From Streptomyces sp. NBC_00659 (lineage in GTDB: Bacteria > Actinomycetota > Actinomycetes > Streptomycetales > Streptomycetaceae): a stretch of DNA of 64,000 nt. Location of the stretch: NCBI RefSeq assembly GCF_036226925.1, contig NZ_CP109031.1, forward strand, positions 2,232,001 through 2,296,000. The letters run 5' to 3'. This document shows, piece by piece, positions 14,397-49,268 of the stretch. The position numbers and the translations under genes were made by a program. Each line of letters opens with the position of its first letter. The first letter of the stretch is position 1. Under the pieces are notes generated by a model. It worked only from the letters and a program-made list of their open reading frames with translations, did not search any database and was not told the origin of the DNA.

Positions 14397-14768
14397 TCAG
14401 ACCGCGATCAGGTCGACCACGAAGATCAGCGTCTCACCGGGCTTGATCGCCGGAGTCGGGCTCTGGTCGCCGTAGGCGAGGTGGGCGGGGATGGTCAGCC
14501 GGCGACGACCGCCGACCTTCATGCCCTGCACACCCTTGTCCCAGCCCTTGATGACACGGCCACCACCGAGCGGGAAACGGAACGGCTCGCCCCGGTTCCA
14601 GCTCGCGTCGAACTCCTCACCCGTGCTGAACGACACACCCACGTAGTGCACCGTGACGTTCTGACCCGACTTGGCCTCGGGGCCGTCGCCCTCCCAGATG
14701 TCCTTGATCTCAAGGTCCGCCGGCGGCTGGCCCTCGGGGAAATCGATCTCGGGCTTCTCGATGCTCAC
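14397..14768 (-). CDS. FKBP-type peptidyl-prolyl cis-trans isomerase
   Basis: A 123-residue cytoplasmic single-domain FKBP that speeds prolyl bond isomerisation during folding. Active-site features of the fold are present: VTVHYVGVSFSTGEEFDASW, the FPLGGGRVIKGWDKGVQGMK hairpin, RRRLTIPAHLAYGDQ and LIFVVDLIAV. The GTG at 14768 (MSIEKPEIDFPEG) has AGGAG seven bases upstream. No signal peptide is seen, in contrast to the double-domain FKBP lipoprotein 61 bp upstream on the same strand. Confidence 0.92.
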   Translation of the reverse strand: MSIEKPEIDFPEGQPPADLEIKDIWEGDGPEAKSGQNVTVHYVGVSFSTGEEFDASWNRGEPFRFPLGGGRVIKGWDKGVQGMKVGGRRRLTIPAHLAYGDQSPTPAIKPGETLIFVVDLIAV

Positions 14769-14829
14769 GTCTTTGCTCCTGCTTTGTGTACGTAAGGACA
14801 ACATGGACAGTCTTACATCCCCGGAGGGG

Positions 14830-15837
14830 TCAGAACGTCGCCAGGATGTCGACCGAGAAGACGAGAGTGGAGTCCTTCTCGATACCGCTGCCCGCCGGCG
14901 GGTTGTCGCCGTAGCCCAGAGCCGGCGGAATCACGATCAGGACGCGGCTGCCCACCTTCTTGCCCGTCAGCCCCTGCGCCCAGCCCTTGACGACCTGCTG
15001 CAGCGAGAACTGCGTCAGCTGGCCCCGCTTGTACGTCGAGTCGAACTCCTTGCCGCTGTCCCACAGCACACCCTCGTACTGCACCAGGACGCTGCTGTCG
15101 GCCTTGAGCTCGTCGCCGTCGCCCTCGATCACGTAGTTCGCCACGAGCTTCGTGGGAGCGGCCTTCTTCGGCACCGTGATCTTGGGAGCGGCGCCGTCCG
15201 TGTTCGTGCCGACCGTCGGCAGCGAGGCGTCGTTCTGCGGCACGTTCTTGCCCTTGGCGGAACTCTTGGAGTTGAACGTGCCCTCGATGTCCACCACGAA
15301 CACCAGCGTGTCCGTGCCCTTGATACCCGCCTGCGCGTTGCCCTCCGAGCCATAACCCCAGGTCGGCGGCACCGCCATCTCGACGCGGCTGCCGGTCTTC
15401 TTGCCGACCAGACCATAGCGCCAGCCGTCGATGATGCTGCCCTGCGCCAGCTGGATGAGCAGCGGCGCCCCCCGGTCGTAGGAGTTGTCGAAAACCTTCG
15501 CCGTGGCCCAGATCTGACCCAGGTAGTTGGCCTGGACGTAGTCGTTCTCCGCGACCGTCTTGCCGTTGCCCGCGATCACCGTCCTGACCGCGAGATCCTT
15601 CGACGGCTCCCCGGTGCCCTTGGCCACGGTCGGCTTCTCACCGAACTTCGTACCGGCCGTGATCGCCGGCAGCGGCCCGTCGACGATCTTCGGCGGGGGC
15701 GGCGCGGACGCCGCCGCGGACGCCGAAGGCGACGGGCTGTTGCTGGACTTCGCCGTGTCTGACTTGCCGTCGTCACCGCATCCGGCGAGCGTGACCAGTC
15801 CAGCGGGTACGGAGAGAAGGAGTGAGCGTCGGCGCAC
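14830..15837 (-). CDS. FKBP-type prolyl isomerase lipoprotein with two FKBP domains
   Basis: A 335-residue exported protein. It starts with a lipoprotein signal (LVTLAGCGDDG, lipobox cysteine at about residue 20), then a Ser/Pro/Ala linker. Two FKBP domains follow: one around residues 85-190 (VQANYLGQIWATAKVFDNSY, VEMAVPPTWGYG) and a second at about 225-335 (VLVQYEGVLWDSGKEFDSTY, VLIVIPPALGYGDNPPAGSG). It probably assists folding of exported proteins at the outer membrane face. The GTG at 15837 has GAGG eight bases before it. The second domain looks more canonical than the first, which has lost part of the active-site loop. Confidence 0.9.
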   Translation of the reverse strand: MRRRSLLLSVPAGLVTLAGCGDDGKSDTAKSSNSPSPSASAAASAPPPPKIVDGPLPAITAGTKFGEKPTVAKGTGEPSKDLAVRTVIAGNGKTVAENDYVQANYLGQIWATAKVFDNSYDRGAPLLIQLAQGSIIDGWRYGLVGKKTGSRVEMAVPPTWGYGSEGNAQAGIKGTDTLVFVVDIEGTFNSKSSAKGKNVPQNDASLPTVGTNTDGAAPKITVPKKAAPTKLVANYVIEGDGDELKADSSVLVQYEGVLWDSGKEFDSTYKRGQLTQFSLQQVVKGWAQGLTGKKVGSRVLIVIPPALGYGDNPPAGSGIEKDSTLVFSVDILATF

Positions 15838-15965: not shown

Positions 15966-17327
15966 TCACATTCCGGCGATCAGCTTCTCCACCCGATCGT
16001 CCACCGAACGGAACGGGTCCTTGCACAACACCGTGCGCTGCGCCTGATCGTTGAGCTTCAGGTGCACCCAGTCGACGGTGAAGTCCCGCCGCTGCTCCTG
16101 GGCCCGCCGGATGAAGTCACCGCGCAGACGCGCCCGAGTGGTCTGCGGCGGCACCGACTTGCCCTCGAAGATCTTCAAGTCGTTGCAGATCCGCGCGGCT
16201 TGCCCCTTCCTCTCCAGCAGGTAGTACAGGCCACGACGGCGGTGGATGTCGTGGTAGGCGAGGTCTATCTGCGCGACCCGGGGGTGCGACATGGTCATGT
16301 TGTGCTTCGCCCGGTACCGCTCGATGAGCTGGTACTTCATCACCCAGTCGATCTCGGTACCGATCCGGTCGAGGTCCTCGGCCTCGATCGAGTCGAGCAC
16401 ACGGCCCCACAGTTCGAGGACCTGTTCGACGGTCCCGGTGCGGATACCGCGGCGCTCACAGAAGTCCACGGCCTTCTCGTAGTACTCGCGCTGCACCTCC
16501 AGCGCGGAGGCCTCACGGCCACTGGCCAGGCGCACCTTCCGACGGCCCGTGATGTCATGACTGACCTCGCGGATCGCCCGAATGGGGTTCTCCAGAGTCA
16601 GGTCGCGCATCACGGTGCCCGCCTCGATCATGCGCAGCACGAGGTCCGTGGCACCGACCTTGAGAAGCATCGTCGTCTCGGACATGTTCGAGTCGCCGAC
16701 GATCACATGCAGACGGCGATAGCGCTCGGCGTCCGCGTGCGGCTCGTCACGCGTGTTGATGATGGGCCGGGACCGGGTCGTCGCCGAGCTGACGCCCTCC
16801 CAGATGTGCTCCGCCCGCTGGCTGACGCAGTACACGGCACCGCGCGGAGTCTGCAGCACCTTGCCCGCACCACACAGCAACTGCCTCGTGACCAGGAACG
16901 GAATGAGAATGTCCGCGAGCCGGGAGAACTCCCCGTGCCGGGCCACCAGATAGTTCTCGTGGCACCCGTAGGAGTTTCCTGCCGAGTCGGTGTTGTTCTT
17001 GAACAGATAGACGTCGCCCGCGATCCCTTCCTCGTGCAGGCGTCGTTCGGCGTCCACCAGAAGACCTTCGAGAATGCGCTCGCCGGCCTTGTCGTGGGTG
17101 ACGAGCTCCGTCACGTTGTCACATTCGGGTGTCGCGTATTCCGGATGTGATCCCACGTCGAGATAAAGGCGGGCACCGTTCCGCAGAAAGACATTGCTGC
17201 TGCGGCCCCATGACACGACACGGCGGAAGAGGTACCGCGCCACCTCGTCGGGAGACAGCCGACGCTGTCCCCTGAACGTACACGTGACGCCGTACTCGTT
17301 CTCCAGCCCGAAAATGCGGCGGTCCAT
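15966..17327 (-). CDS. pafA: Pup-protein ligase PafA
   Basis: A 453-residue glutamine-synthetase-like ligase. It phosphorylates the C-terminal glutamate of Pup with ATP and joins it to lysines of target proteins, marking them for the proteasome. Visible features are FGLENEYG (metal-binding Glu9 and Glu11), [15 protein letters not shown] with the catalytic Asp57, [19 protein letters not shown], and [13 protein letters not shown]. The family is paralogous to Dop, encoded at 22422-23933, but lacks the Dop loop. The ATG lies 9 bp after the MFS stop with no clear Shine-Dalgarno sequence, which suggests translational coupling to that gene or a leaderless transcript. Confidence 0.95.
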
Positions 17328-17336
17328 GACTGAACA

Positions 17337-18596
17337 TTACGCCCGATCCCCCGAGCTGAAACGGGGTTCGACGGCTCGGTTTGGATCATTTTCCGATGAG
17401 ACCGCAACAACCTCGCCCCTCCCGGTAGCTGCGAGGACCCTGCCCGTGGCCAGCAGAACCACCAGCGCGGCAGCTCCCGCGACCCCCGCAACGGCGAAGC
17501 CCCGCCCCGCCCCGCCCCACTCCACGACCGGCCCCGCGACACCCGTTCCCACCGAAGCACCCACGGTGAACGTCGTCACAAGCCAGGAAAAAGCCTCGGT
17601 GACCGTACCGGTGGGCGCGTGCCGGTCCACCAGCACGAAGGCACACGCGATGCTCGGCGCGAGGAACACCCCGGCAAGCGTCGCAAGCCCCGTCATGGCC
17701 ACCGGACCCGGCACCAGCACCAGCGGGACGTAACACACCGCCAGAAGGGCCACCAGCACCCGCAGTCGCCGCTCCGGCGCCCCGCCCCAGCGACGCGCGC
17801 CGTAGACCACACCGCCCAGCAGCGCCCCGAGCCCGATGCCCGCCATCAGCCAGCCGTACACCACGTCCCCGCCGTGCGCGTCGGCGTACGACACCGCCGC
17901 CACCGTGATCGAGCCGAGCGCCATCCCGACGAACAGGAACGCCCCGAGCAGGGCCAGCAGCCCCGGCGAACGCAGAGCACCCAGCCAGTGCGCCTCGCGC
18001 GGAGCCGAACGCCACGCGCGCGAGGGCTCCGAGACGACCACGGAGAGGGCACCGAGGACACCGATGACGGCCAGGATCAGCAGGGCGGCCTGCGCGGACC
18101 AGAGCGACACGCACAGCGTCACCAGCAAGGGCCCGACGGTGAACATGACTTCCTGCGCCACCGCGTCCATCGCGTACGCGGTGTGCACCTGCTCCTCCTT
18201 GCCCAGCACGGAGGGCCACAGCGCCCGCAGGCCGCCCTCCAGAGGAGGCGTGAAGAGCCCGGCCACGGCCATCGCGGCGCAGGCGAGCGCCACCGGCTCC
18301 GTTCCGGCCAGGGCGAAGGCGCCCATGCCGAGCGCCGAGACGACCGCGGCGGGCAGTTGCACCCGGGGCTGGCCGTACAGGTCCACCAGCCGGCCGAGCA
18401 GTGGCTGCCCGACCGCGTTGGCCACCCCGTACACCGCCGCGAGCGCGCCCGCCAGGCTGTACGTGCCTCCCCCGGCCCGCACGAACAGCACCACGGCGAT
18501 GGCCGCCGTGGCGTTCGGCAGCCGCCCCACCAGCGTCCCCGCGAGCAGCCTGGCGGCATGCCTCGCCCTGAGGATCTCCAGGTATCCCGCGGCCAT
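17337..18596 (-). CDS. Major facilitator superfamily transporter
   Basis: A 419-residue membrane protein with about twelve hydrophobic segments, typical of MFS efflux-type carriers. The N-terminal part reads LLAGTLVGRLPNATAAIAVV and GVANAVGQPLLGRLVDLYGQ, the latter resembling the loop 2-3 signature; a central hydrophilic loop (SEPSRAWRSAPREAHW) divides the halves. The substrate is unknown. The start is ATG 18596 with GGAAGGG six bases before it. It is divergent from the LacI-type gene across a 107-bp gap with paired TACGTA motifs, and pafA follows nine bases downstream, so it may be controlled by the regulator and influence pafA expression. Confidence 0.85.
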   Translation of the reverse strand: MAAGYLEILRARHAARLLAGTLVGRLPNATAAIAVVLFVRAGGGTYSLAGALAAVYGVANAVGQPLLGRLVDLYGQPRVQLPAAVVSALGMGAFALAGTEPVALACAAMAVAGLFTPPLEGGLRALWPSVLGKEEQVHTAYAMDAVAQEVMFTVGPLLVTLCVSLWSAQAALLILAVIGVLGALSVVVSEPSRAWRSAPREAHWLGALRSPGLLALLGAFLFVGMALGSITVAAVSYADAHGGDVVYGWLMAGIGLGALLGGVVYGARRWGGAPERRLRVLVALLAVCYVPLVLVPGPVAMTGLATLAGVFLAPSIACAFVLVDRHAPTGTVTEAFSWLVTTFTVGASVGTGVAGPVVEWGGAGRGFAVAGVAGAAALVVLLATGRVLAATGRGEVVAVSSENDPNRAVEPRFSSGDRA

Positions 18597-18632
18597 GGCA
18601 TGCCCTTCCGGTAGCGCGTGACGTCCAAGTGT

Positions 18633-18659
18633 TACGTATAACGTCTCCCTCCATACGTA
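18633..18659. promoter_or_regulatory. Paired TACGTA boxes between divergent MFS and LacI genes
   Basis: Two palindromic TACGTA hexamers sit at 18633-18638 and 18654-18659, 21 bp apart, i.e. two helical turns, in the short divergent intergenic region. The first is embedded in GTTACGTATAAC. Such spacing suits a dimeric regulator, and the adjacent LacI-type protein is the natural candidate (inference). Confidence 0.45.
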
Positions 18660-18703
18660 CCATGTGCGCTGACCGGGAGTCCAGACGAAGGAGCAGGCCC
18701 ACG

Positions 18704-19717
18704 GTGGCAAGAGGTAGCACGCGCCCCACCAGCCGGGACGTCGCCGAGGCCGCCGGGGTCTCCCAGGCAGCCGTCTCCCTCGTCCTCGGCGACAAGTGGC
18801 GCGGCCGCGTCTCCGCCGCGACCGCCGACCGCGTCCGCGACGCGGCCCAGGAACTCGGCTACCGCCCCAACCTGGCCGCCCGCAACCTCCGCCTCGGCCG
18901 CACCCGCACCGTCCTGCTGGTCGTCCCCGCCCTCACCACCGAATTCTTCGCGGGCGTATACACCGGCGCCGCCCGCGTAGCCGCCCAGCACGGCTTCGGA
19001 GTCGTCCTCTACCCCTCCCCCGAAGGCATCGGCCCCGCCCGCGACCCCTTCGGCTCCGCCCAGGCCGCCCTCGACGGCGTCATCGCCTCCTCCATGGCGG
19101 CCGACGCCCTCACCGCGATCCGCGGCGACCAGCTTCCCCTCGTCATGCTCGACAGCGACCCCGCCGGCAGCCAGGGCGCCGCCACCGTCAACCTCGACAT
19201 CGCCGACGGCGTACGCCAGGTCACCGACCACCTCCTCGCACTCGGCCACCGCCGCTTCCTGCACCTCGCGGCCGACATCCCCTCCTGGACCTTCGAGGTC
19301 CGCGCCCGCGAACTGGCCTCCTGCCTCGTCGAAGTCCCCGGAACCAGCCTGCGGGTCGCCCACGCCCCCATCTCCTTCGAAGACGCCCTGGCCGCCGCGC
19401 AGACCGCACTCTCCACCCCGGGCCCCCGCCCCACCGCGATCGTCTGCGACGACGACAAACTCGCCGCGGGCGCCTACAAAGCCGCCCGCCGCCTCGGCCT
19501 GCGCATCCCCGACGACATCTCCGTCACCGGACTCGACGACCTCGCCCTGGCCCGCGCCCTCGACCCCGAACTCACCACGGTCCGCCTGGACGCCGAACGA
19601 TTCGGCGAACAGGGCATGAAAGCCCTCCTGGCCGTCCTCGACGGCCGCACGCCCCCACAGGAGGACATCCCCGTCGAACTCGTCGTACGGGGCTCCACGG
19701 CCCCTCCTGGCACCTAG
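18704..19717 (+). CDS. LacI-family transcriptional regulator
   Basis: A 337-residue regulator. The N-terminal LacI helix-turn-helix is intact (TSRDVAEAAGVSQAAVSLVL, with hinge helix YRPNLAARNLRLGRT), followed by a periplasmic-binding-like sugar/effector domain (VLLVVPALTTEFFAGVYTGA, SVTGLDDLALARALDPELTT). It probably represses the divergent MFS gene and itself. GTG 18704 was preferred, with AAGGAG ten bases upstream, because the usual LacI HTH begins within ten residues of it; an open frame continues upstream to 18629. The effector is unknown. Confidence 0.88.
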   Translation: MARGSTRPTSRDVAEAAGVSQAAVSLVLGDKWRGRVSAATADRVRDAAQELGYRPNLAARNLRLGRTRTVLLVVPALTTEFFAGVYTGAARVAAQHGFGVVLYPSPEGIGPARDPFGSAQAALDGVIASSMAADALTAIRGDQLPLVMLDSDPAGSQGAATVNLDIADGVRQVTDHLLALGHRRFLHLAADIPSWTFEVRARELASCLVEVPGTSLRVAHAPISFEDALAAAQTALSTPGPRPTAIVCDDDKLAAGAYKAARRLGLRIPDDISVTGLDDLALARALDPELTTVRLDAERFGEQGMKALLAVLDGRTPPQEDIPVELVVRGSTAPPGT

Positions 19718-19738
19718 GGCCCTCGCCTCCCACAGCAC

Positions 19739-19782
19739 ACGGAAGGGGCCGCACCGGTCTGCACCGGGGCGGCCCCTTCCGT
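19739..19782. terminator. Bidirectional terminator between lacI-type gene and prcA
   Basis: A perfect 14-bp stem (19739-19752 with 19769-19782; core GGAAGGGGCCGC / GCGGCCCCTTCC) with a 16-nt loop lies between convergent genes, 22 bases past the regulator stop. It can serve both strands; T tracts are weak. Confidence 0.75.
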
Positions 19783-19819
19783 ACGAACACCCGAACGGGC
19801 ACGAGGTCCGACCACGACC

Positions 19820-20566
19820 TCACTCGTCGTCGTCGGCGTCCTCGGCCTCCGTCGCCGTCTCCGCGCCCCCGGCCTCCAGCAACCTGTCCAGCTGGCGGCC
19901 GACGATCCGCTTGAACTTCCGCTTCTGCGGCCGCGTCCGGTCCAGCACCGCGACCTCCAGCCGCTCCGCCGGAATCTCCCGCTCGCCACCGTTCGGCTCC
20001 CGGGACAGCGACTGGACAGCCAGCTTCAGCGCCTCGGCCAGCGACATGCCGTCCCGGTGCTGCGTATCCAGATACGTACTGATCTGCTCGGCGTTACCGC
20101 CGACAGCGACCGAACCGTGCTCGTCCACGATCGAACCGTCGTGCGGCAGCCGGTAGATCTGGTCACCGTCCGGCGTCTCCCCGACCTCGGCGACCACCAG
20201 CTCCACCTCGTACGGCTTCTCCGCCGCCGACGAGAAGATCGTGCCCAGCGTCTGGGCGTACACATTGGCCAGACCACGAGCGGTCACATCGGCACGGTCG
20301 TACGTGTAGCCACGCAGATCGGCGTAACGCACACCGCCGATCCGCAGGTTCTCGTACTCGTTGTACTTACCGGCGGCCGCGAAGCCGATCCGGTCGTAGA
20401 TCTCGCTGAACTTGTGCAGCGCGCGGGACGGGTTCTCGCCGACGAACACGATGCCGTCGGCGTACTGCAGCACGACCAGGCTGCGGCCACGGGCGATGCC
20501 CTTGCGGGCGTACTCCGCCCGGTCGGCCATCGCCTGCTGGGGTGAGACATAGAACGGCGTCGACAC
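19820..20566 (-). CDS. prcA: Proteasome alpha subunit
   Basis: A 248-residue alpha-type subunit that forms the outer gating rings of the 20S core. Family features are the N-terminal gating segment [20 protein letters not shown] with the alpha-specific helix ([18 protein letters not shown]), [20 protein letters not shown], and an acidic C-terminus (EAEDADDDE). There is no N-terminal catalytic threonine, as expected. The GTG at 20566 is 57 bp after the prcB stop on the same strand; AAAGGGA lies upstream. It is the last gene of the dop-pup-prcBA cluster. Confidence 0.96.
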
Positions 20567-20623
20567 CGGCTATCCGTCCCTTTCTGTCGAAGTCACTGGA
20601 TCACCTGGGAAAAGAGGCCGGAC

Positions 20624-21469
20624 TCAGAGCAGCGCGGCGCGCGGGCCGTCGGGCTGCTCCAGTCGCCGCTCCAGGATCGTGCGGGCGATCTCGGAGGACT
20701 CCTCGTCGGTGAGCCGGCGGAAGCCGCTCTCGGTGATCACGGTGACGATCGGGTAGATCCGGCGCGCGACATCGGGACCACCGGTCGCCGAGTCGTCGTC
20801 GGCCGCGTCGTAGAGGGCCTGGATGACCAGCGTCGTCGCCTGGTCCTCCGTCAGATCCCTGGCGTAGAGCTTCTTCATGGCACCGCGCGCGAAGAGCGAG
20901 CCGGAGCCCGTGGCCGCGTAGCCGTGCTCCTCGGAGCGGCCGCCGGTGACGTCGTAGGAGAAGATGCGGCCCTTGCCGCGGTCCACGTCGAAGCCCGCGA
21001 ACAGGGGGACCACGGCGAGACCCTGCATGGCCATGCCGAGGTTGGAACGGATCATCGTGGACAGGCGGTTCGCCTTGCCCTCCAGGGAGAGCTGCGCGCC
21101 CTCCACCTTCTCGAAGTGCTCCAGCTCCAGCTGGAACAGCTTCACCATCTCCACGGCCAGACCCGCCGTGCCGGCGATGCCCACCGCCGAGTACTCGTCG
21201 GCCGGGAAGACCTTCTCGATGTCGCGCTGGGCGATGACGTTCCCCATCGTGGCCCGCCGGTCACCGGCGAGGACGACTCCACCGGGGAACGTGACGGCGA
21301 CGATCGTCGTGCCGTGCGGGGCCTCGATCACACCCTGGACGGGCGGCAGTTGCCGCTTGCCCGGGAGCATCTCCGGCTGGTGCTCGGACAGGAAGTCCAT
21401 GAAGGACGACGACCCGGGCGTCAGGAAGGCAGCCGGTAGACGCCCGGTGCTACGAGTGTTGGCTTCCAC
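20624..21469 (-). CDS. prcB: Proteasome beta subunit (catalytic)
   Basis: A 281-residue precursor of the proteolytic subunit. A propeptide of about 53 residues ([27 protein letters not shown]) precedes HG|TTIVAV, and autocleavage exposes the N-terminal nucleophile Thr54. [13 protein letters not shown] provides the lysine/arginine region equivalent and [20 protein letters not shown] the conserved second half. GTG 21469 has GGAGGG seven bases upstream. Its first 49 bases overlap the end of the endonuclease VII-like gene, an unusual arrangement that couples the two translationally. Confidence 0.96.
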
Positions 21470-22014
21470 GCGTTTCCCTCCAGGTAGGCGGCAGCCCGAC
21501 GAACAGCGTCGGGATCGTCTCCCAACTTGCCGATGGCCGAATTGCAGTTGAAGCACAGTACGCCACGGACACTACCCGTCTTGTGGCAGTGATCCACATG
21601 AATGGCAGGAGCTTTCAGGCAGATCACGCAGAGCCCCTTTTGAGAGGCGACCATCGCGTCGCGCTGAGCTTCAGTGAGGCCGTAGTTGCGTTTCAGGTGC
21701 CCAGCACGTCCCTCGGCAGCTCGACACGCCTTGCAACGCGTCGACAGCCCGTCCGAAGCCGTTGCATTGCGATGCCACTCGCTCCACGGCTTGACCTCAC
21801 CGCATTTGAGGCACAGTTTGTGTCCCTCGGGCACATCCACCTGAGGGCGAACTTTCCGCCCGAGGCTCAGCTGACGCTTTCGGTGATAGTCCGACGCACA
21901 ATCTCGACAGTGATGCTGCAGACCGTCCAGATTGGACCGCTTACGAGCGAAGGCCGCGTGCGGTTTGACTTCGCCGCACCGCACGCAACACTTCACACCC
22001 TCTTCATTCCCCAA
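21421..22014 (-). CDS. Endonuclease VII-like HNH protein with duplicated zinc knuckles
   Basis: A 197-residue protein. Its C-terminal half is a recombination endonuclease VII-type His-Me finger: [20 protein letters not shown] followed by [20 protein letters not shown], with paired cysteines for zinc. The N-terminal half holds two related treble-clef repeats ([20 protein letters not shown] and [20 protein letters not shown], each closed by a CxxC). It probably cuts branched or damaged DNA; a proteasome-related role is unproven. Base composition is visibly less GC-rich than prcB or dop. The start is TTG 22014 with GGGGGA upstream; GTG 21996 is an alternative. Its end overlaps prcB by 49 bp. Confidence 0.82.
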
Positions 22015-22046
22015 CCCGAAGTCCCCCGCGACCTTGGATTCGAAGG

Positions 22047-22265
22047 TTACTCGCCGCCTTTCTGAACGAATGACCTCACGAAGTCCTCGGCGTTCTCCTC
22101 CAAGACATCGTCGATCTCGTCAAGAACCGAGTCGACGTCGTCGCTCAGCTTTTCCTGGCGTTCCTTGAGGTCGTCGGTCGCTTGCGCGTCCTGTGTCTGC
22201 TCCTCGGCCTCCTCGGTGGAACGCGTCGCCTTCTGCTGTCCGCCGCCGGTGTCCTTGGTCGCCAT
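22047..22265 (-). CDS. pup: Prokaryotic ubiquitin-like protein Pup
   Basis: A 72-residue intrinsically disordered tag. ATKDTGGGQQKATRS at the N-terminus is followed by a helical central part (DLKERQEKLSDDVDSVLDEI) that binds the coiled coil of the ATPase, and ends FVQKGGE. The last codon is GAG, so the protein ends in Glu rather than Gln and can be used by PafA without prior deamidation by Dop. ATG 22265 is preferred; a GTG three codons upstream (MRVMATK) is possible, and GAGGG is close to the ATG. It lies between dop and the endonuclease VII-like gene. Confidence 0.96.
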   Translation of the reverse strand: MATKDTGGGQQKATRSTEEAEEQTQDAQATDDLKERQEKLSDDVDSVLDEIDDVLEENAEDFVRSFVQKGGE

Positions 22266-22300
22266 AACCCTCACCCCGCTCGGTTCGACGTTCTTGATCA

Positions 22301-22318
22301 GACCCTACAAGCAGGGTC
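22301..22318 (-). promoter_or_regulatory. Hairpin and possible promoter in the pup leader
   Basis: GACCCT / AGGGTC arms with a 6-nt loop lie 36-53 bases upstream of the pup ATG in the 156-bp dop-pup gap. No T run follows, so it is not a convincing terminator. Read on the minus strand the distal arm contains TAGGGT, a weak -10-like hexamer. An internal pup promoter is plausible but unproven. Confidence 0.25.
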
Positions 22319-22421
22319 CGACATCGGCCCCGCAGTTGCCACAACGCACGGGGACCATCTCGATGATTCCCGTAACGCCGGGTATTCCACCCTGTCCGGC
22401 CGGTGCCGTCCCGGGGGAAGC

Positions 22422-23933
22422 TCAGTTGCCCGACAGCACCCTGACCAGGTCCTCGGCCGTACGGCAGCGGTCCAGGAGTGCCTTGACGTGATTACGCGTT
22501 CCGCGAAGCGGCTCCAGGGTTGGGACGCGCTGGAGCGAGTCCCGGCCGGGCAGGTCGAAGATCACCGAGTCCCAGGAGGCCGCCGCAACGTCGTCCGCGT
22601 ACTGCTCCAGGCAGCGTCCGCGGAAGTAGGCGCGGGTGTCCTCCGGCGGTGTCGTGCGGGCCCGCTCGACCTCACTCTCGTCCAGCAGGCGCTTGATCTT
22701 GCCCCGGGCCGCCAGACGGTTGTAGAGGCCCTTCTCGGCCCGTACGTCGGCGTACTGGAGGTCGACCAGGTGCAGCCGGGCGTGGTCCCAGTCGAGGTCG
22801 TCGCGGCGCCGGTAGCCCTCCATGAGCTCCCGCTTGGCGACCCAGTCGAGCTCTCCGGCGAGGCTCATCGGGTCGTTCTCCAGGCGGTTCAGGGTGTCCT
22901 CCCAGCGCAGGAGGACGTCCATGGTCTGTTCGTCGGCGTCCGCCCCGAACCGCTCCTCCACGTATTTGCGCGACAGCTCGAAGTACTCCATCTGCAGTTG
23001 CACGGCGGTGAGTGTGCGGCCGCTGCGGAGCGTGACCAGGCGCTTGAGGGTCGGGTCGTGGGAGACCTGGTGGAGGGTGCGTACGGGCTGGTCGACGGCC
23101 AGGTCGACGGCGATGAAGCCGTCCTCGATCATGGAGAGGACCAGTGCCGTCGTGCCCAGCTTGAGGTAGGTCGAGATCTCGGAGAGGTTGGCGTCTCCGA
23201 TGATCACGTGCAGCCGGCGGTACTTCTCGGCGTCGGCGTGCGGTTCGTCGCGGGTGTTGATGATGGGGCGCTTGAGCGTCGTCTCCAGGCCTACCTCGAC
23301 CTCGAAGTAGTCGGCGCGCTGGCTGAGCTGAAAGCCGTGCTCGTGTCCGTCCTGGCCGATGCCGACGCGGCCCGCTCCGGTGACGACCTGGCGTGAGACG
23401 AAGAACGGCGTGAGGTGCCGCACGATGTCCGAGAAGGGGGTCTCCCGCTTCATCAGGTAGTTCTCGTGCGTGCCGTAGGAGGCGCCCTTGTTGTCGGTGT
23501 TGTTCTTGTAGAGGTGGATCGGCTGGGCGCCGGGAAGCTGGGCGGCGCGCTCCGCGGCCTCGGCCATGATGCGCTCGCCGGCCTTGTCCCACAGGACCGC
23601 GTCCCGCGGGTTGGTGACTTCGGGGGAGCTGTATTCCGGGTGTGCGTGGTCGACGTACAGCCGTGCACCGTTGGTGAGGATGACATTGGCCAGGCCGATG
23701 TCCTCGTCGGTGAGCTGGCTGGTGTCGGCGGCCTCCCGGGCGAGGTCGAAGCCTCGCGCGTCCCGCAGCGGGTTCTCCTCCTCGAAGTCCCAGCGGGCGC
23801 GGCGCGCCCGGTGCATCGCCGCCGCGTAGGCGTTGACGATCTGGGACGAGGTGAGCATGGCATTGGCGTTGGGGTGACCGGGGACGGAGATCCCGTACTC
23901 CGTCTCGATGCCCATTACTCGCCGTACGGTCAT
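22422..23933 (-). CDS. dop: Pup deamidase/depupylase Dop
   Basis: A 503-residue PafA paralogue that removes Pup from substrates and, where Pup ends in Gln, deamidates it. Features are [20 protein letters not shown], an insertion around residues 40-80 that includes the Dop-loop region ([20 protein letters not shown]), [14 protein letters not shown] with nucleophilic Asp95, [20 protein letters not shown], and [26 protein letters not shown] six bases before ATG 23933 gives a strong ribosome site. Because the Pup encoded here ends in Glu, the deamidase function should be dispensable and the gene's main task is depupylation (inference). Confidence 0.95.
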
Positions 23934-24124
23934 GCGGCCCTCCTTGCCCGGCGGCGCCCTCGGTCGGGGGCGCTGCTCAAGTACCGCTGGCGCTCCGGTG
24001 CGTGTGCGGTGCCCGTCCCCGCACTGCGCGACTCGGCGGTACGAAAGAGCCTAGAACGCCTTTGCGCTGGTGGGGAGATCATTTGCGTCATTGCTGTGCT
24101 CCGGCTTTGTCCTGAAAAACAGTC

Positions 24125-24157
24125 GGCTGCGGGTACCCGTCGGGGGCACCCGCAGCC
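24125..24157 (-). terminator. Intrinsic terminator between arc and dop
   Basis: A perfect 10-bp stem (GGCTGCGGGT / ACCCGCAGCC) is extended by imperfect pairs. On the minus strand it is followed by GACTGTTTTTC (T run complementary to 24115-24119). It lies 11 bases past the arc stop, a textbook factor-independent terminator. Confidence 0.85.
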
Positions 24158-24167
24158 GCCCTGTCTT

Positions 24168-25934
24168 TTACAGGTACTGACCGGTGTTGGCCACCGTGTC
24201 GATGGAGCGTCCGGTGTCCGCGCCCTGCTTTCCGGTGATGAGCGTACGGATGTACACGATCCGTTCGCCCTTCTTTCCGGAGATCCTGGCCCAGTCGTCG
24301 GGGTTGGTGGTGTTGGGCAGGTCCTCGTTCTCCTTGAACTCGTCCACGCATGCCTGGAGGAGGTGGGAGACCCGGAGGCCCTTCTGGCTGTGCTCCAAGA
24401 AGTCCTTGATGGCCATCTTCTTGGCGCGGCCCACGATGTTCTCGATCATGGCGCCGGAATTGAAGTCCTTGAAGTAAAGGACTTCCTTGTCACCGTTGGC
24501 GTAGGTGACCTCCAGGAAGCGGTTCTCCTCGGATTCGGCGTACATCTGCTCCACGGCTGTCTGGATCATGCCGTGGACGGTGGCCGCCCTGTCGCCGCCG
24601 TGCTCTCCCACGTCCTCAGGGTGCAGCGGGAGACGCTCGGTGAGGTACTTCTGGAAGATGTCCTTCGCCGCCTCGGCGTCCGGGCGTTCGATCTTGATCT
24701 TCACGTCGAGCCGGCCTGGGCGCAGGATGGCGGGGTCGATCATGTCCTCGCGGTTCGAGGCGCCGATGACCACGACGTTCTGCAGGCCTTCCACGCCGTC
24801 GATCTCGGCGAGCAGCTGCGGGACGATGGTGTTCTCCACGTCCGAGCTGACGCCTGATCCCCGGGTGCGGAAGAGGGATTCCATCTCGTCGAAGAAGACG
24901 ATGACGGGGGTGCCCTCGCTGGCCTTCTCCCGTGCGCGCTGGAAGATGAGTCGGATCTGCCGCTCGGTCTCGCCGACGTACTTGTTCAGGAGCTCGGGGC
25001 CCTTGATGTTGAGGAAGAAGCTCTTGCCGGTGGCCTGTCCGGTCACCTCGGCGACCTTTTTGGCCAGCGAGTTGGCCACGGCCTTGGCGATGAGCGTCTT
25101 TCCGCATCCGGGAGGCCCGTACAGCAGGACGCCCTTGGGCGGCCGCAGCTCGTGCTCCTTGAAGAGGTCGGGGTAGAGGTAGGGGAGCTCGACGGCGTCG
25201 CGGATCATCTCGATCTGGCCGCCCAGACCGCCGATCTGCTCGTAGCCGATGTCCGGGACCTCTTCGAGGACGAGTTCCTCGACCTCGCTCTTCGGAACGA
25301 TCTCGTAGACATAGCCGGAACGGGGTTCGAGGAGCAGGGCGTCCCCGGGACGGATATTGACGTCCAGGAGCGGCTCGGCGAGCCGTACCACCCGTTCCTC
25401 GTCGGTGTGCCCCTGCACGAGGGCGCGCTCGCCGTCCTCCAGGATCTCCTTGAGGGTGACGATCTCGCCCACGCTCTCGTACTCCATGGCCTCGACCACG
25501 TTGAGAGCTTCGTTGAGCATCACTTCCTGGCCGCGCCTGAGCTCGTCGAGCTCGACGCTGGGGCTGACGTTCACCCGGAGCTTGCGGCCCCCGGTGAAGA
25601 TGTCGGCCGTGCCGTCCTCGTTCGCCGTGAGGAAGACACCGAAGCCGGCCGGCGGCTGTGCGAGCCGGTCGACCTCCTCCTTGAGGGCCACGATCTGGTC
25701 GCGGGCCTCACGGAGTGTGTTCGCCAGTCGTTCGTTCTGTGCGGACACGCCTGCCAGGTTGGTCTGCAACTCGACGATCCGCTCTTCGAGAATCCTCGTG
25801 TGTCGCGGAGAGTCGGCGAGCTTGCGTCGCAGGACGGCGATCTCCTGCTCAAGGTAGGCAATCTGCCCGGCGGGGTCATCGGACCCTCTTCCCGGGCGGA
25901 TGCCGCGGTTCATGTCGTCGTCGTGGGCTGCCAC
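24168..25934 (-). CDS. arc: Proteasomal ATPase ARC/Mpa
   Basis: A 588-residue AAA+ unfoldase that captures pupylated proteins and threads them into the 20S core. An N-terminal coiled coil (about residues 22-92: [20 protein letters not shown]) binds Pup. Two OB-fold interdomain segments follow (about 95-225), then a AAA module with Walker A GPPGCGKT at 273-280, Walker B FFDE at 347-350, and an SRH arginine segment (RPGRLDVKI). The C-terminal GQYL is the docking motif for the alpha ring. GTG 25934 has AGGAGGT seven bases upstream. The hairpin downstream suggests its transcript normally ends before dop. Confidence 0.96.
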
Positions 25935-26187
25935 GGTCCTCACCTCCTCCAAGGGGAGCTGGACGCTTCCAGACCCTACCTGGGTGGGTGTCGATTGAAA
26001 CCCCTAGATCACAAAGACTGTCGGGGTGTGTCCGATCTTCACCCTTGCGCTCTCCCTCACGCCAGGGGAATACCCACCGAACATGCTTGGGAAGCGGGCG
26101 GAGGTAGGGTCGAAGTGTTCAACACCCGTCAGAGCTGGCCCGATTCCCCAGTCTTCGGTCCGCTCGACGCAGAAAACGGCAGGAGAA

Positions 26188-46457: not shown

Positions 46458-46655
46458 CGGCTGTCCGGGTCCATCGCCGCGGCCCCGCCTTCACGTCCCC
46501 GCACGCCCCCCACACGTCCTCAGGAGTGCTGTCCCGGCGCACCATAGGCGGCCGACCACCACTGCCGCCCCGCTGCATGACATCCGTCTCGTCTACCTTC
46601 GGCCTGAATTCGGCGTGACATCTGTTTCAGGACGGATTGCACACGTTGCCCAATT

Positions 46656-46678
46656 CAACTTGTCGGCAAACCAAGTTG
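46656..46678 (+). promoter_or_regulatory. CAACTTG/CAAGTTG inverted repeat
   Basis: Two 7-bp arms are separated by 9 bp in the AT-richer region about 180 bases before the protease start codon. It is a candidate operator for the protease/Q-rich module. Confidence 0.4.
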
Positions 46679-46793
46679 GCGAATTCGGGGTGGACGGGAC
46701 GCCGTGGGCGTGCCAGGTTGTGCCTCGAAGGCGCCGCCCCGGCAAGGGACATGGCGCATGCCGCCGGCCGGAGGACAGCGCACGGCACGGCGT

Positions 46794-46840
46794 ACGGCAC
46801 ACGCAGGGAACGGCACACGCAGGGACCGGCACCCCAGGGA
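46794..46840. repeat. 16-bp tandem repeats in the protease 5' leader
   Basis: Two identical copies of ACGGCACACGCAGGGA (46794-46809, 46810-46825) are followed by a degenerate third (46826-46840), ending 20 bases before the start codon, just upstream of the GAAGGGAG ribosome site. Confidence 0.75.
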
Positions 46841-46859
46841 TCGAAGGGAGCGGTACGCG

Positions 46860-48608
46860 ATGACCGACCAGGTACAGCCGGCGCAGGGCCCGGGAACGAC
46901 CGGGCCGGGGCCCGACGGAGCGGGATTCACCTACCGAGGAGCCGAGCGGGAGCTGATCGTCGTCGCCCGTCCGGAAGCCAGGCTGCGCGCACGGGCCGAG
47001 GGCGTCCGCTCGGCGGCGGGCGCCGACGTCTCGGCCCTCGACATGTTCCTCAGCGACGAACAGCTCGTCCTGGAGCCGCTGTTCGGCAGCGAGGAACGTC
47101 TCCGGCAGTCCGCGGCGGCGGGCACCGGGAGCGGTCCCGACCTCGCGCTCTTCTACCGGCTGCGCGGCGCGGGCAGCCGCGCCCAGGAACTGCGCGCCCG
47201 GATCGCCGCGCTGCCGGGGATCGACGCGGCGTACGTGAAACCCGGCGCCGTTCCCGCGGCGCCGGAACCGGGACCGTGGACCGGCGGGAGCTCCGAGGAC
47301 GGCCGGCGGCTGAAGGAGGGGGCGCCCGTCACCCCCGACTTCACCAGCAGGCAGGGCTACTTGCGCCCGGCGCCCGAGGGCGTCGACGCGTACTGGGCGT
47401 GGCAGCGGCCGGGCGGTTCGGGCCGGGGCGTCACCGTGATCGACGTGGAGGGCGCCTGGCAGCTCGGACACGAGGACCTGGCGTCGAAGCTCGCCGGCGT
47501 GGTCGTCGGCACTCCGCACACGGACCTCGCCTGGCGCAACCACGGAACCGCGGCCATCGGCGTGATCGGCGGCGACCGCGATGAGCACGGGATCACCGGG
47601 ATCGTTCCGGACGCCGTGACCGCGGCCGCGTCCGTCCGGGGCATCGGGACGGCCGCGGCGATCCACGCGGCGGCGGAACGGCTGGGCCCCGGCGACATCA
47701 TCCTGGTCGAACTGCACGCTCCGGGGCCCCGGTTCGACTTCGAGGAGCGCGACAGCCAGGCGGGCTACATCGCCCTCGAATGGTGGCCCGACGACTTCGC
47801 CGCCGTCCAGGACGCGACCTCCCGGGGCATCCTCGTGGTGGCGGCGGCCGGAAACGGCGCCGAGTCGCTGGACGACGCGCTCTACGAGCGGCGCCCGCCG
47901 GAGTTCCCGGAGTGGTGGCGCAATCCCTTCAACCCCTCCAATCCGTCCTCCGGGGCGATCCTGGTCGGCGCGGGCGCACCGCCGCCCGGCACACACGGCC
48001 GCGACCACGGGCCGGACCGTTCACGGCTCGCGTTCTCCAACCACGGCGCGCGCGTGGACGCGCAGGGCTGGGGCCGCGAGGTCACGACCACCGGTGGCTT
48101 CTGGGACCGGCCCGGCGATCTGCAGGGCGGGGCCGAGGAGATCGCCTGGTACACGGACACGTTCTCCGGGACCTCTTCCGCCTCCCCGGTGGTGGTCGGC
48201 GCTCTGGCGGCGCTTCAGGGCATGCTCAGGGCCGCGGGCCGGCCGCCGATGTCCCCGGAACGTGCGCGCGAACTGCTGCGGTCCACGGGTTCCCCGCAGC
48301 AGGACGCGCCGGACCGGCCCGCGTCCCAGCGGATCGGCAGCCGGCCCGACATCAAGGCGGCGGTCACCCGTCTGCTGCCGGAGGCGGTCGGCTCCGGCCG
48401 GGCCGAACGGTACTGGGACGAGTTGCTGCCGTATCCGCGCGAACTCCCGCCGAGGCTCCGGCTGTACGTGTCCGGCGCCTGGCGCAACCTCGACCACCCG
48501 TCCCCCGAGGTCCGTCAGGCGGTGCACTCCGCCTTCGCGGGGGGACGGCCCGATGTACGGGTCTGGTTCTCGGACGACGAGATCGTCGGCCTGGTCGTGA
48601 CGGGCTGA
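46860..48608 (+). CDS. Subtilisin-like (S8) serine protease with novel C-terminal domain
   Basis: A 582-residue protein. An uncharacterised N-terminal domain (about 25-130, YRGAERELIVVARPEARLRA) precedes an S8 catalytic domain with Asp195 (VTVIDVEGAW), His228 (WRNHGTAAIG), oxyanion Asn332 (VAAAGNGAES) and Ser439 (TFSGTSSASP). All key residues are present. There is no signal peptide or membrane segment, so a cytoplasmic enzyme is likely, unusual for this family. The last 50 residues (LYVSGAWRNLDHPSPEV, HSAFAGG) match the end of the next protein without gaps. ATG 46860 has GAAGGGAG nine bases upstream. Regulated proteolysis within a two-gene module is inferred. Confidence 0.85.
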   Translation: MTDQVQPAQGPGTTGPGPDGAGFTYRGAERELIVVARPEARLRARAEGVRSAAGADVSALDMFLSDEQLVLEPLFGSEERLRQSAAAGTGSGPDLALFYRLRGAGSRAQELRARIAALPGIDAAYVKPGAVPAAPEPGPWTGGSSEDGRRLKEGAPVTPDFTSRQGYLRPAPEGVDAYWAWQRPGGSGRGVTVIDVEGAWQLGHEDLASKLAGVVVGTPHTDLAWRNHGTAAIGVIGGDRDEHGITGIVPDAVTAAASVRGIGTAAAIHAAAERLGPGDIILVELHAPGPRFDFEERDSQAGYIALEWWPDDFAAVQDATSRGILVVAAAGNGAESLDDALYERRPPEFPEWWRNPFNPSNPSSGAILVGAGAPPPGTHGRDHGPDRSRLAFSNHGARVDAQGWGREVTTTGGFWDRPGDLQGGAEEIAWYTDTFSGTSSASPVVVGALAALQGMLRAAGRPPMSPERARELLRSTGSPQQDAPDRPASQRIGSRPDIKAAVTRLLPEAVGSGRAERYWDELLPYPRELPPRLRLYVSGAWRNLDHPSPEVRQAVHSAFAGGRPDVRVWFSDDEIVGLVVTG

Positions 48609-48671
48609 GGACGTGGTCCCACCGGACCGAGACGGAACGCAACCAACCATGGATGGAAGGTGGCACCCCGC

Positions 48672-49268
48672 ATGAGCACGATCCCGCAGATGAGCCAGCA
48701 GGGACAGCAGGGACAGCAGGGACAGCAGCAGTACCCGAGCACGTCGCCCTACCAGCAGCAGGGCATGGCCCAGCAGCAGCCGTTCGGACAGCAGATGCCC
48801 ATCGGGCAGCAGACGCTCATCGGACAGCAGGCGCCGATGGGGCAGCAGGCTCAGCAGTCCTTCGGCCGGCACGAGACCGGGCAGCAGGTTCCGCAGTACC
48901 TCCAGCAGCAGCTCCAGCAGCTCGGCCAGCAGCAGCCGTTCCAGCAGCTGCTCCAGCAGCTCGGCGGTCAGCAGCAGCACCAACAGCACCAGCAGATCCA
49001 GCAGGGTGAGCCGCTGATCCTGCCGAGCGCCGTCGAGACCCGGGCCCTGTCCATCGGCATGGCCCAGCACTTCCAGGACGTCGTGACGCCGCTGCCCGGC
49101 CAGCCGCAGGCCCTGTACCTGTTCATCGACAACGGCTGGCGCAGGCTCGTCCACCCCGACCCGGTGACCCACGACGTGGTCCAGAAGGCCTTCGCCTTCG
49201 GGCAGCAGGTCTACGGGATCTACGACACCGGCACCGGCACACTCCAGTCCGTCATCGTGACCAGGTAG
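48672..49268 (+). CDS. Glutamine-rich prion-like protein sharing the protease's C-terminal domain
   Basis: A 198-residue protein in two parts. Residues 1-111 contain 50 glutamines in QQ and QQQ runs spaced by Gly, Pro, Met and Leu (GQQGQQGQQQ, GQQMPIGQQTLIGQQ, LQQQLQQLGQQQ), with almost no charge: a low-complexity, prion-like region. Residues 145-198 form a small domain (LYLFIDNGWRRLVHPDPVTH, KAFAFGQQVYGIYDTGTG) homologous to the end of the S8 protease encoded 63 bp upstream. ATG 48672 has GAAGGTGG nine bases upstream. No signal peptide. It may be a substrate, inhibitor or scaffold for the protease; the function is unknown. Confidence 0.85.
   Translation: MSTIPQMSQQGQQGQQGQQQYPSTSPYQQQGMAQQQPFGQQMPIGQQTLIGQQAPMGQQAQQSFGRHETGQQVPQYLQQQLQQLGQQQPFQQLLQQLGGQQQHQQHQQIQQGEPLILPSAVETRALSIGMAQHFQDVVTPLPGQPQALYLFIDNGWRRLVHPDPVTHDVVQKAFAFGQQVYGIYDTGTGTLQSVIVTR

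Follow-up and report, generated by a model that had tools for sequence, protein, structure and literature searches.

The gene pair described here, a subtilisin-like (S8) protease followed by a small glutamine-rich protein in Streptomyces sp. NBC_00659, recalls several described systems. In conflict systems of multicellular prokaryotes, effector-associated domain (EAD) coupling has been described, in which a small non-enzymatic domain is repeated in the adjacent gene; one of the two genes possibly encodes a peptidase, and homotypic coupling has been proposed (PMC7159879, in the passages on this domain). In Myxococcus xanthus, the signal-less subtilisin-like protease PopC has a dedicated complex-forming protein, PopD, and the PopD complex blocks PopC secretion (PMC6434023, in its account of the pair). 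Intracellular subtilisins (ISPs) are likewise signal-less S8 proteases and, where their architecture is outlined, carry a pro-peptide with a LIPY/F motif (PMC6220982). We found no published account of the protease and its Gln-rich neighbor in the mainly open literature, judged by titles and the openings of abstracts. The pair lies on the forward strand of a 64,000-nt stretch (the window; contig NZ_CP109031.1, positions 2,232,001 to 2,296,000), separated by 63 bp, between two genes that we take, from synteny, to be parJ and mshC.

By analogy, and as far as the cited passages go, EAD coupling appears to be the nearest published idea, having the same grammar; this locus yielded neither a core component nor a sensor or second effector. 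PopC-PopD would be the nearest working precedent, within what its account covers, for a partner that holds a signal-less S8 protease. We found a homologous domain of about 70–80 residues, C-terminal domain A (CTD-A), at the C-terminus of both the protease and its Gln-rich neighbor, so that the smaller protein can be called the protease's twin. The small twin very likely acts jointly with the protease, since the arrangement is seen again with other, unrelated tails and enzymes. The module has the following parts.

46860..48608, forward strand: S8 subtilase of 582 aa without a visible signal peptide (PF00082, catalytic residues, hydrophobicity scan)
46950..47240, forward strand: propeptide-like N-terminal domain of the protease, residues 31-127 (AlphaFold2, Foldseek)
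47325..48377, forward strand: S8 catalytic domain, residues 156-506, with D195, H228, N332 and S439 (Pfam, AlphaFold2, conservation)
48396..48605, forward strand: CTD-A of the protease, residues 513-582 (profile comparisons; low model confidence)
48672..49268, forward strand: Gln-rich partner, or twin, of 198 aa (open reading frame from the ATG at 48672, 63 bp after the protease)
48672..49016, forward strand: N-terminal part of the partner, rich in Gln and largely disordered in appearance (Gln content, model confidence)
48906..48965, forward strand: conserved 20-residue motif QQLQQLGQQQPFQQLLQQLG within the Gln-rich part (alignment columns)
49041..49265, forward strand: CTD-A of the partner, a predicted OB-fold of topology b-b-b-a-b-b (structure prediction)

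We detected the shared domain in several ways. When the partner was used as the query against its whole genome (9.66 Mb, one contig), the protease was matched at E 4.6e-6, while the next two matches had E-values of 0.2 and 0.5. A joint profile built from both CTD-A copies (A1) matched exactly two places in the same genome at E ≤ 10, the protease and the partner. We found 190 related loci in genome_contigs and fetched 80, all of which are from Streptomyces; an hhalign comparison of protease C-termini with partner C-termini from these 80 loci gave a probability of 98% (P 2e-13, 60 columns), which upholds, for whole families, the homology that a preliminary description of the window had proposed from two single sequences. 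That description had the domain starting at protease residue 530, which is wrong; the homology begins near residue 513 (G-x-AExYWD-x-x-x-P) and the domain is larger than claimed. Two of the residues singled out there as common to both copies vary. The tryptophan (W541/W156) is indeed shared in the window, but it is Phe or Leu in many partners, and the histidine (H546/H161) is not a conserved position, the other proteases having N, D, H, S or R there and the partners mostly N, with some S. In a tree of CTD-A, protease copies and partner copies form two clean clades (81/81, support 1.0), consistent with one old duplication. CTD-A had no match at E ≤ 1 among PDB sequences.

The protease itself is intact. 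Its reading frame runs from the ATG at 46860 to the stop codon at 48606-48608, and PF00082 is its sole Pfam match (46.9 bits against a cut-off of 21.8). The catalytic triad and oxyanion asparagine are complete (Asp195, His228, Asn332, Ser439), which places the protein in the S8 subtilase family. Across 81 proteases, from the window and the 80 fetched loci, D195 is conserved in 80 and H228, N332 and S439 in all 81; the protease of locus L081 is the single one without Asp195 and has Val there. In the N-terminal 50 or so residues, a Kyte-Doolittle scan showed no hydrophobic segment (highest mean over 19 residues 0.07). Coordinates, catalytic residues and hydrophobicity therefore agree with the original view of an intact S8 protease lacking a signal peptide and followed 63 bp later by a Gln-rich gene. 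Residues 31-127 were modelled by AlphaFold2 as a confident separate domain (mean predicted local distance difference test score, pLDDT, of 86-95 in nine of ten ten-residue blocks and 62 in the other), yet they have no Pfam propeptide match. Foldseek searches with the protease model returned long alignments with pro-subtilisins (e.g. 2z2z), and also aligned it with fervidolysin and with intracellular subtilisins, B. clausii ISP structures among them. From its sequence and model, the protein looks like a propeptide-bearing subtilase outside the Sec export route. Where ISPs carry the motif-bearing pro-peptide, this protease has a propeptide-like domain, an extra C-terminal domain and a twin gene, and the LIPY/F motif is absent, by eye, from its 582-aa translation. 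The NCBIfam model of type VII secretion mycosins (TIGR03921) scored 35.1 bits against a cut-off of 278.75, which excludes the protease from that family.

The partner combines its domain with a very different N-terminal part, which contains 29-51% Gln across the 80 loci and is modelled with pLDDT mostly below 50. Within it, the motif QQLQQLGQQQPFQQLLQQLG occupies columns 79-98 of an alignment of 86 sequences (A5), with column identities of 0.70-1.00, 16 of 20 columns being at 0.90 or more; these identities are partly inflated where Gln aligns with Gln, while the non-Gln columns L81, G85, P89, L93, L94 and G98 are identical at 0.93-1.00. A strict regular expression for the motif matched 57 of 81 partners. 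In Pfam, no match of the Gln-rich protein reached its cut-off (best Histone, E 0.36), and NCBIfam and PADLOC gave no match. The predicted OB-fold of its domain resembles those of AB5-type B subunits, eIF5A/HEX-1 and SilF at 1-17% identity, a resemblance of fold only from which we draw no function.

The linkage of the two genes is tight. A protease followed by a Gln-rich reading frame with the shared domain was found in 80/80 fetched loci, with a parJ match upstream in 80/80 and an mshC match downstream in 78/80; in the remaining two, mshC was not found within the fetched stretch. Some loci contain extra genes between parJ and the protease or between the partner and mshC, and never between the protease and the partner. 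The genes that fill these outer gaps were ruled out as module components, as they differ between the two loci compared (L062 and L012); judged by their sequences, they encode an aldehyde-dehydrogenase-like protein, a secreted propeller-like protein and a GH31-like glycosidase. We then have broader counts from a genus sample (246 genomes), a family sample (302 genomes) and a class sample (394 genomes in 137 genera). CTD-A occurs in 7 of the 394 class genomes, all from one genus, and in 36 of the 246 genus genomes, 32 of which have two adjacent copies, as read from printed coordinates on one contig and strand and taken for protease and partner from their spacing. The linkage expected by the preliminary description was thus recovered in the neighborhood survey.

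The four genus genomes with a single copy are informative. In two (G762 and G852), the protease is still in place between parJ and mshC, with no partner found. In a third (G768), a protease with CTD-A lies at another locus (L124, 4881-8632) beside MreB- and TerB-like genes, with no Gln-rich partner. In the fourth (G911), the catalytic core and the partner have been lost, and a CTD-only reading frame whose start runs almost straight into the domain is left between parJ and mshC (L126, 8197-8595). A partner without its protease was seen in none of the four, and a protease with its C-terminal domain but without a partner in three, and this argues against an antidote function that would make the partner indispensable. 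The partner-less G852 protease (L125, 8062-9972, reverse strand) is altered just after the catalytic Ser (GTSSAVRVV) and, by its sequence, is perhaps decaying.

We found the same layout with a second domain. On a Haloferax mediterranei plasmid, a protease 53% identical to the window protease (tblastn) has another tail, C-terminal domain B (CTD-B), and the next gene, 62 bp on, encodes a stand-alone CTD-B of 84 residues that is 76% identical to the protease's own copy. CTD-A and CTD-B were ruled out as one family (hhalign probability 0-0.4%). The class search gave a second S8 protease of this type, in a Streptomyces genome (G356), and it too adjoins a stand-alone CTD-B gene. Profile searches with CTD-B matched 2 of the 246 genus genomes and 7 of the 302 family genomes, and all nine were fetched. 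The S8 proteases of G356, G1175, G1052 and G1105 each have a stand-alone CTD-B twin 12-84 bp downstream, so that an S8 protease with CTD-B is followed by its twin in 5/5 cases (Haloferax and four Streptomycetaceae). Among homologues of the Haloferax enzyme, all 120 listed of 5243, including proteins from Haloferax, Massilia and Acidobacteria, end in CTD-B by eye, in a list that is biased to CTD-B by a query carrying that domain and that covers proteins rather than gene neighborhoods.

CTD-B is also attached to a different class of enzyme. In G752 and G1126, it follows an astacin (PF01400, E 8e-49 for the G752 protein) with no hydrophobic start by eye, and a stand-alone CTD-B lies about 320 bp downstream of the astacin.

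L161, 5881-7549, and L175, 5410-7083: three-gene astacin modules, each of astacin with CTD-B, low-complexity gene and stand-alone CTD-B

The middle gene encodes an Ala/Gly/Pro-rich, low-complexity protein of about 92-93 residues and overlaps the start of the twin by ATGA. The astacin narrowly passes the NCBIfam LegP model (304.8 against a cut-off of 300). The two astacin loci are near-identical and were counted as one origin. Altogether, a twin is present at 7/7 CTD-B protease loci with known context, and these twins are bare domains of 84-86 residues. At the three places where CTD-B occurs without an assigned protease (L162, L179 and L180, which comprise, in no particular order, a Tat-like signal with CTD-B, a propeller-like protein and an unassigned open reading frame), twins were found in 0/3; the single CTD-B of L179 (6645-7355, reverse strand) stands after a sequence that resembles a twin-arginine translocation (Tat) signal by eye. 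In CTD-B trees, the twin groups with its own protease's domain in Haloferax (ultrafast bootstrap, UFBoot, 86) and in the astacins (93), while in the Streptomycetaceae S8 modules twins (72) and protease domains (92) form separate clades; these groupings lend moderate support to repeated origins of the twin layout. Database matches to CTD-B were few. The Haloferax stand-alone copy had none in Pfam, PHROGs or NCBIfam, the astacin twin had one PHROG match (14 residues, E 0.002), the L162 copy had a Peptidase_A4 match below cut-off (E 0.016), and a search of PDB sequences gave one match at E 0.64.

A twin beside every relative of the protease was ruled out by ten further S8 loci, five of which encode proteases that end after the catalytic domain, without a C-terminal extension of 25 residues to compare, while the other five have different extensions with no matching reading frame nearby. 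On present sequences, the twin rule is tied to CTD-A and CTD-B and not to the whole S8 subfamily. One relative (L114, 5322-7955; 58%) has a DUF346 repeat array as its tail, indicating that this protease family exchanges C-terminal domains. As a chance control, we compared the last 80 residues of each gene with its direct neighbor in 25 chosen stretches. Of 469 comparisons, 14 matched at E ≤ 1e-3, and 12 of these were the modules described here (CTD-A in both directions), leaving 2/457, one in the window at 14397-15837 and one in L070 at E 8e-4. The control missed the L059 CTD-A pair and both astacin modules, and its stretches are non-random and overlapping, so it provides a rough base rate. 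The window match consists of two adjoining genes on the reverse strand (14397-15837) that are alike in their C-terminal 80 residues (42% identity, E 6e-20); they resemble tandem FKBP-type isomerases.

The history of the locus was compared with that of its flanks. We examined 12 chosen genomes, 11 domain-less Streptomyces and G768, without S. coelicolor being examined by name. In 10 of the 11, parJ and mshC are 0-732 bp apart (match end to match end) and in one 3.2 kb apart, which supports the view of the pair as an insertion or deletion between these genes; G768 had no parJ match within the fetched stretch. Across 77 loci and the window, with 299 permutations, protease distances correlated with combined parJ and mshC distances (Spearman 0.84, p 0.003) and partner-domain distances did so less (0.43). 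In a parJ+mshC tree (FastTree, branch support left aside), presence and absence of the module interleave. Long residence with repeated, patchy loss fits these data better than a mobile unit. A mobile or phage origin was rejected, as tblastn with the protease gave distant relatives only (15 plasmid and 4 phage records, all below 60% identity; best 55.5% for plasmids and 34% for phages). A viral_contigs scan gave four weak S8 matches and, for CTD-B, none. The module matched no known defence family in PADLOC and so falls outside the mobile defence systems recognized there. The earlier proposal of a mobile conflict system whose two genes came in together is not supported.

The data are consistent with a two-component protease module, to which we assign a probability of roughly one half. 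The signal-less, propeptide-bearing subtilase would have a C-terminal oligomerization domain that is repeated in a catalytically inert twin from the next gene. The homologous domains would bring protease and twin together in a mixed complex, with the twin as its scaffold or spacer subunit. In Streptomyces, the twin's flexible Gln-rich tail and its conserved motif may raise the local concentration of the protease, position it or offer it targets. We infer the co-assembly, the scaffold (or regulator) role of the twin and the action inside the cell. Where proteases are paired, independently, with a copy of their own tail, the best explanation is that the two proteins associate physically by way of that domain. 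The idea of recognition via the shared domain, already part of the preliminary description, is strengthened by the reappearance of the layout with a second, unrelated domain and with proteases of an unrelated class. The C-terminal domain is the most conserved of the three protease parts (mean pairwise distance 0.119, compared to 0.142 for the core and 0.215 for the N-terminal domain), as expected of an assembly surface. The OB topology predicted for the partner counts for co-assembly because it is also found in several oligomers, and the low-complexity gene of the astacin modules is a parallel to the Gln-rich tail. Neither an obligatory inhibitor nor a dedicated substrate accounts as well as mixed assembly for twins that are bare domains of 84 residues, for the OB topology, for the conservation of the protease's C-terminal domain and for a dispensable twin.

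Several results weigh against co-assembly. Given the flanks, the correlation between protease and partner distances was only 0.12, a weak covariation, and the partner evolves faster than the protease, its C-terminal domain being fast-evolving as well. Neither is predicted by co-assembly, and it is for these reasons that our confidence is held at one half. Moreover, in the other five of the ten further S8 loci, the C-terminal extension was matched by no reading frame of the stretch at E ≤ 0.1.

A rather unlikely alternative is that the twin retains or inhibits the protease, as in PopC-PopD, holding it inactive or unexported in the cytoplasm until the twin is removed. A signal-less S8 protease with a companion gene, closely spaced downstream, would suit such a role, for which the PopD complex that blocks PopC secretion is the precedent (PMC6434023, as described there). 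The protease, however, already has a propeptide-like domain, and the three genomes with the protease and its C-terminal domain but no partner found are hard to square with an obligatory inhibitor. PopC also differs in layout, having an N-terminal part without recognized domains and a C-terminal subtilisin domain, and the passages on its architecture mention no shared domain (PMC6434023).

It is unlikely that the two proteins are enzyme and substrate, with the shared domain docking the Gln-rich protein so that the protease cuts at the conserved LQQLGQQQPFQQLLQQLG motif and frees the tail. Conservation is higher in the 20-residue motif than elsewhere in the Gln-rich part, the partner stands alone in none of the four single-copy genomes, and it evolves faster than the protease, all of which count in favor of a substrate. 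The bare CTD-B twins of 84-86 residues nevertheless offer nothing to cleave off, and cleavage is not the general function.

We consider it very unlikely that the module belongs to a conflict system, with the shared domain acting as an effector-associated domain that brings the protease to a sensor. The published EAD signature is a small non-enzymatic domain present again in the gene next door (PMC7159879, for the systems it details), and the module's presence is patchy (36/246 genus genomes). Adjacent EAD copies tend to be closest relatives, as stated for the systems treated there (PMC7159879), which holds here moderately for the CTD-B of Haloferax and the astacins, whereas for CTD-A the protease copies group apart from the partner copies. 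Five neighbors were scanned in frame (an FGGY kinase, an FAD oxidoreductase, a tRNA-synthetase-like protein, a PI3/4-kinase-like protein and DUF3090). These contained no nucleoside triphosphatase (NTPase) or sensor domain and no VMAP, iSTAND, GAP1 or MoxR/vWA, and the second protein of the pair has no recognized effector or sensor domain. No fusion of a CTD-A copy to an EAD core (VMAP, iSTAND, GAP1, Ubl) was found, the genome's two copies being those of the protease and its Gln-rich partner. EAD systems frequently contain more than the two domain copies per genome seen in the home genome and in 32/36 genus genomes, and they differ from a module that is resident at a housekeeping locus, whose protease distances track the flanking genes and which has no PADLOC match. 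Finally, that the twin is a functionless leftover of a partial tandem duplication is hardly credible, since the partner, although sometimes lost and fast-evolving in its C-terminal domain, is kept in 80/80 fetched loci, its N-terminal motif is conserved and its fold well predicted, and the same layout occurs in Haloferax and with an astacin.

Returning to co-assembly, we tentatively extend it to a general, undescribed design, in which bacterial and archaeal signal-less proteases (subtilase or astacin, with CTD-A or CTD-B) are encoded with a stand-alone adaptor twin, and the stoichiometry of the mixed assembly would determine the site or the strength of protease action. Should the twin prove to be a genuine co-subunit, the module would represent a simple form of intracellular protease control, present in Streptomyces and a haloarchaeon, that dispenses with the NTPase and death-domain machinery of described systems. 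It would also provide functions for two small domains without above-cut-off Pfam or NCBIfam matches, and for an unexplained Gln-rich bacterial protein.

The region in front of the protease is conserved as well.

46600..46700, forward strand: conserved stretch of about 100 bp upstream of the protease (alignment of upstream regions)

In 300-bp upstream regions of the window and its relatives, many columns of this stretch are more than 80-95% conserved, which suggests that the module has its own promoter. The window carries an inverted repeat there, CAACTTG-(9)-CAAGTTG, that is imperfect in several relatives, while a sigma-70 consensus scan upstream of the protease gave no match. Judged by conservation, 46600-46700 is perhaps a candidate promoter/operator of the module. 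ParJ, the presumed product of the gene on this side, is encoded in S. coelicolor by SCO1662 and is a PAC2-like protein acting on ParA (PMC4255298, as summarized there). Farther away in the window, about 21 kb from the protease module, lies a proteasome/Pup-like cluster (15966-25943, reverse strand), whose translations look PafA-, PrcA/B-, Pup-, Dop- and Mpa/ARC-like.

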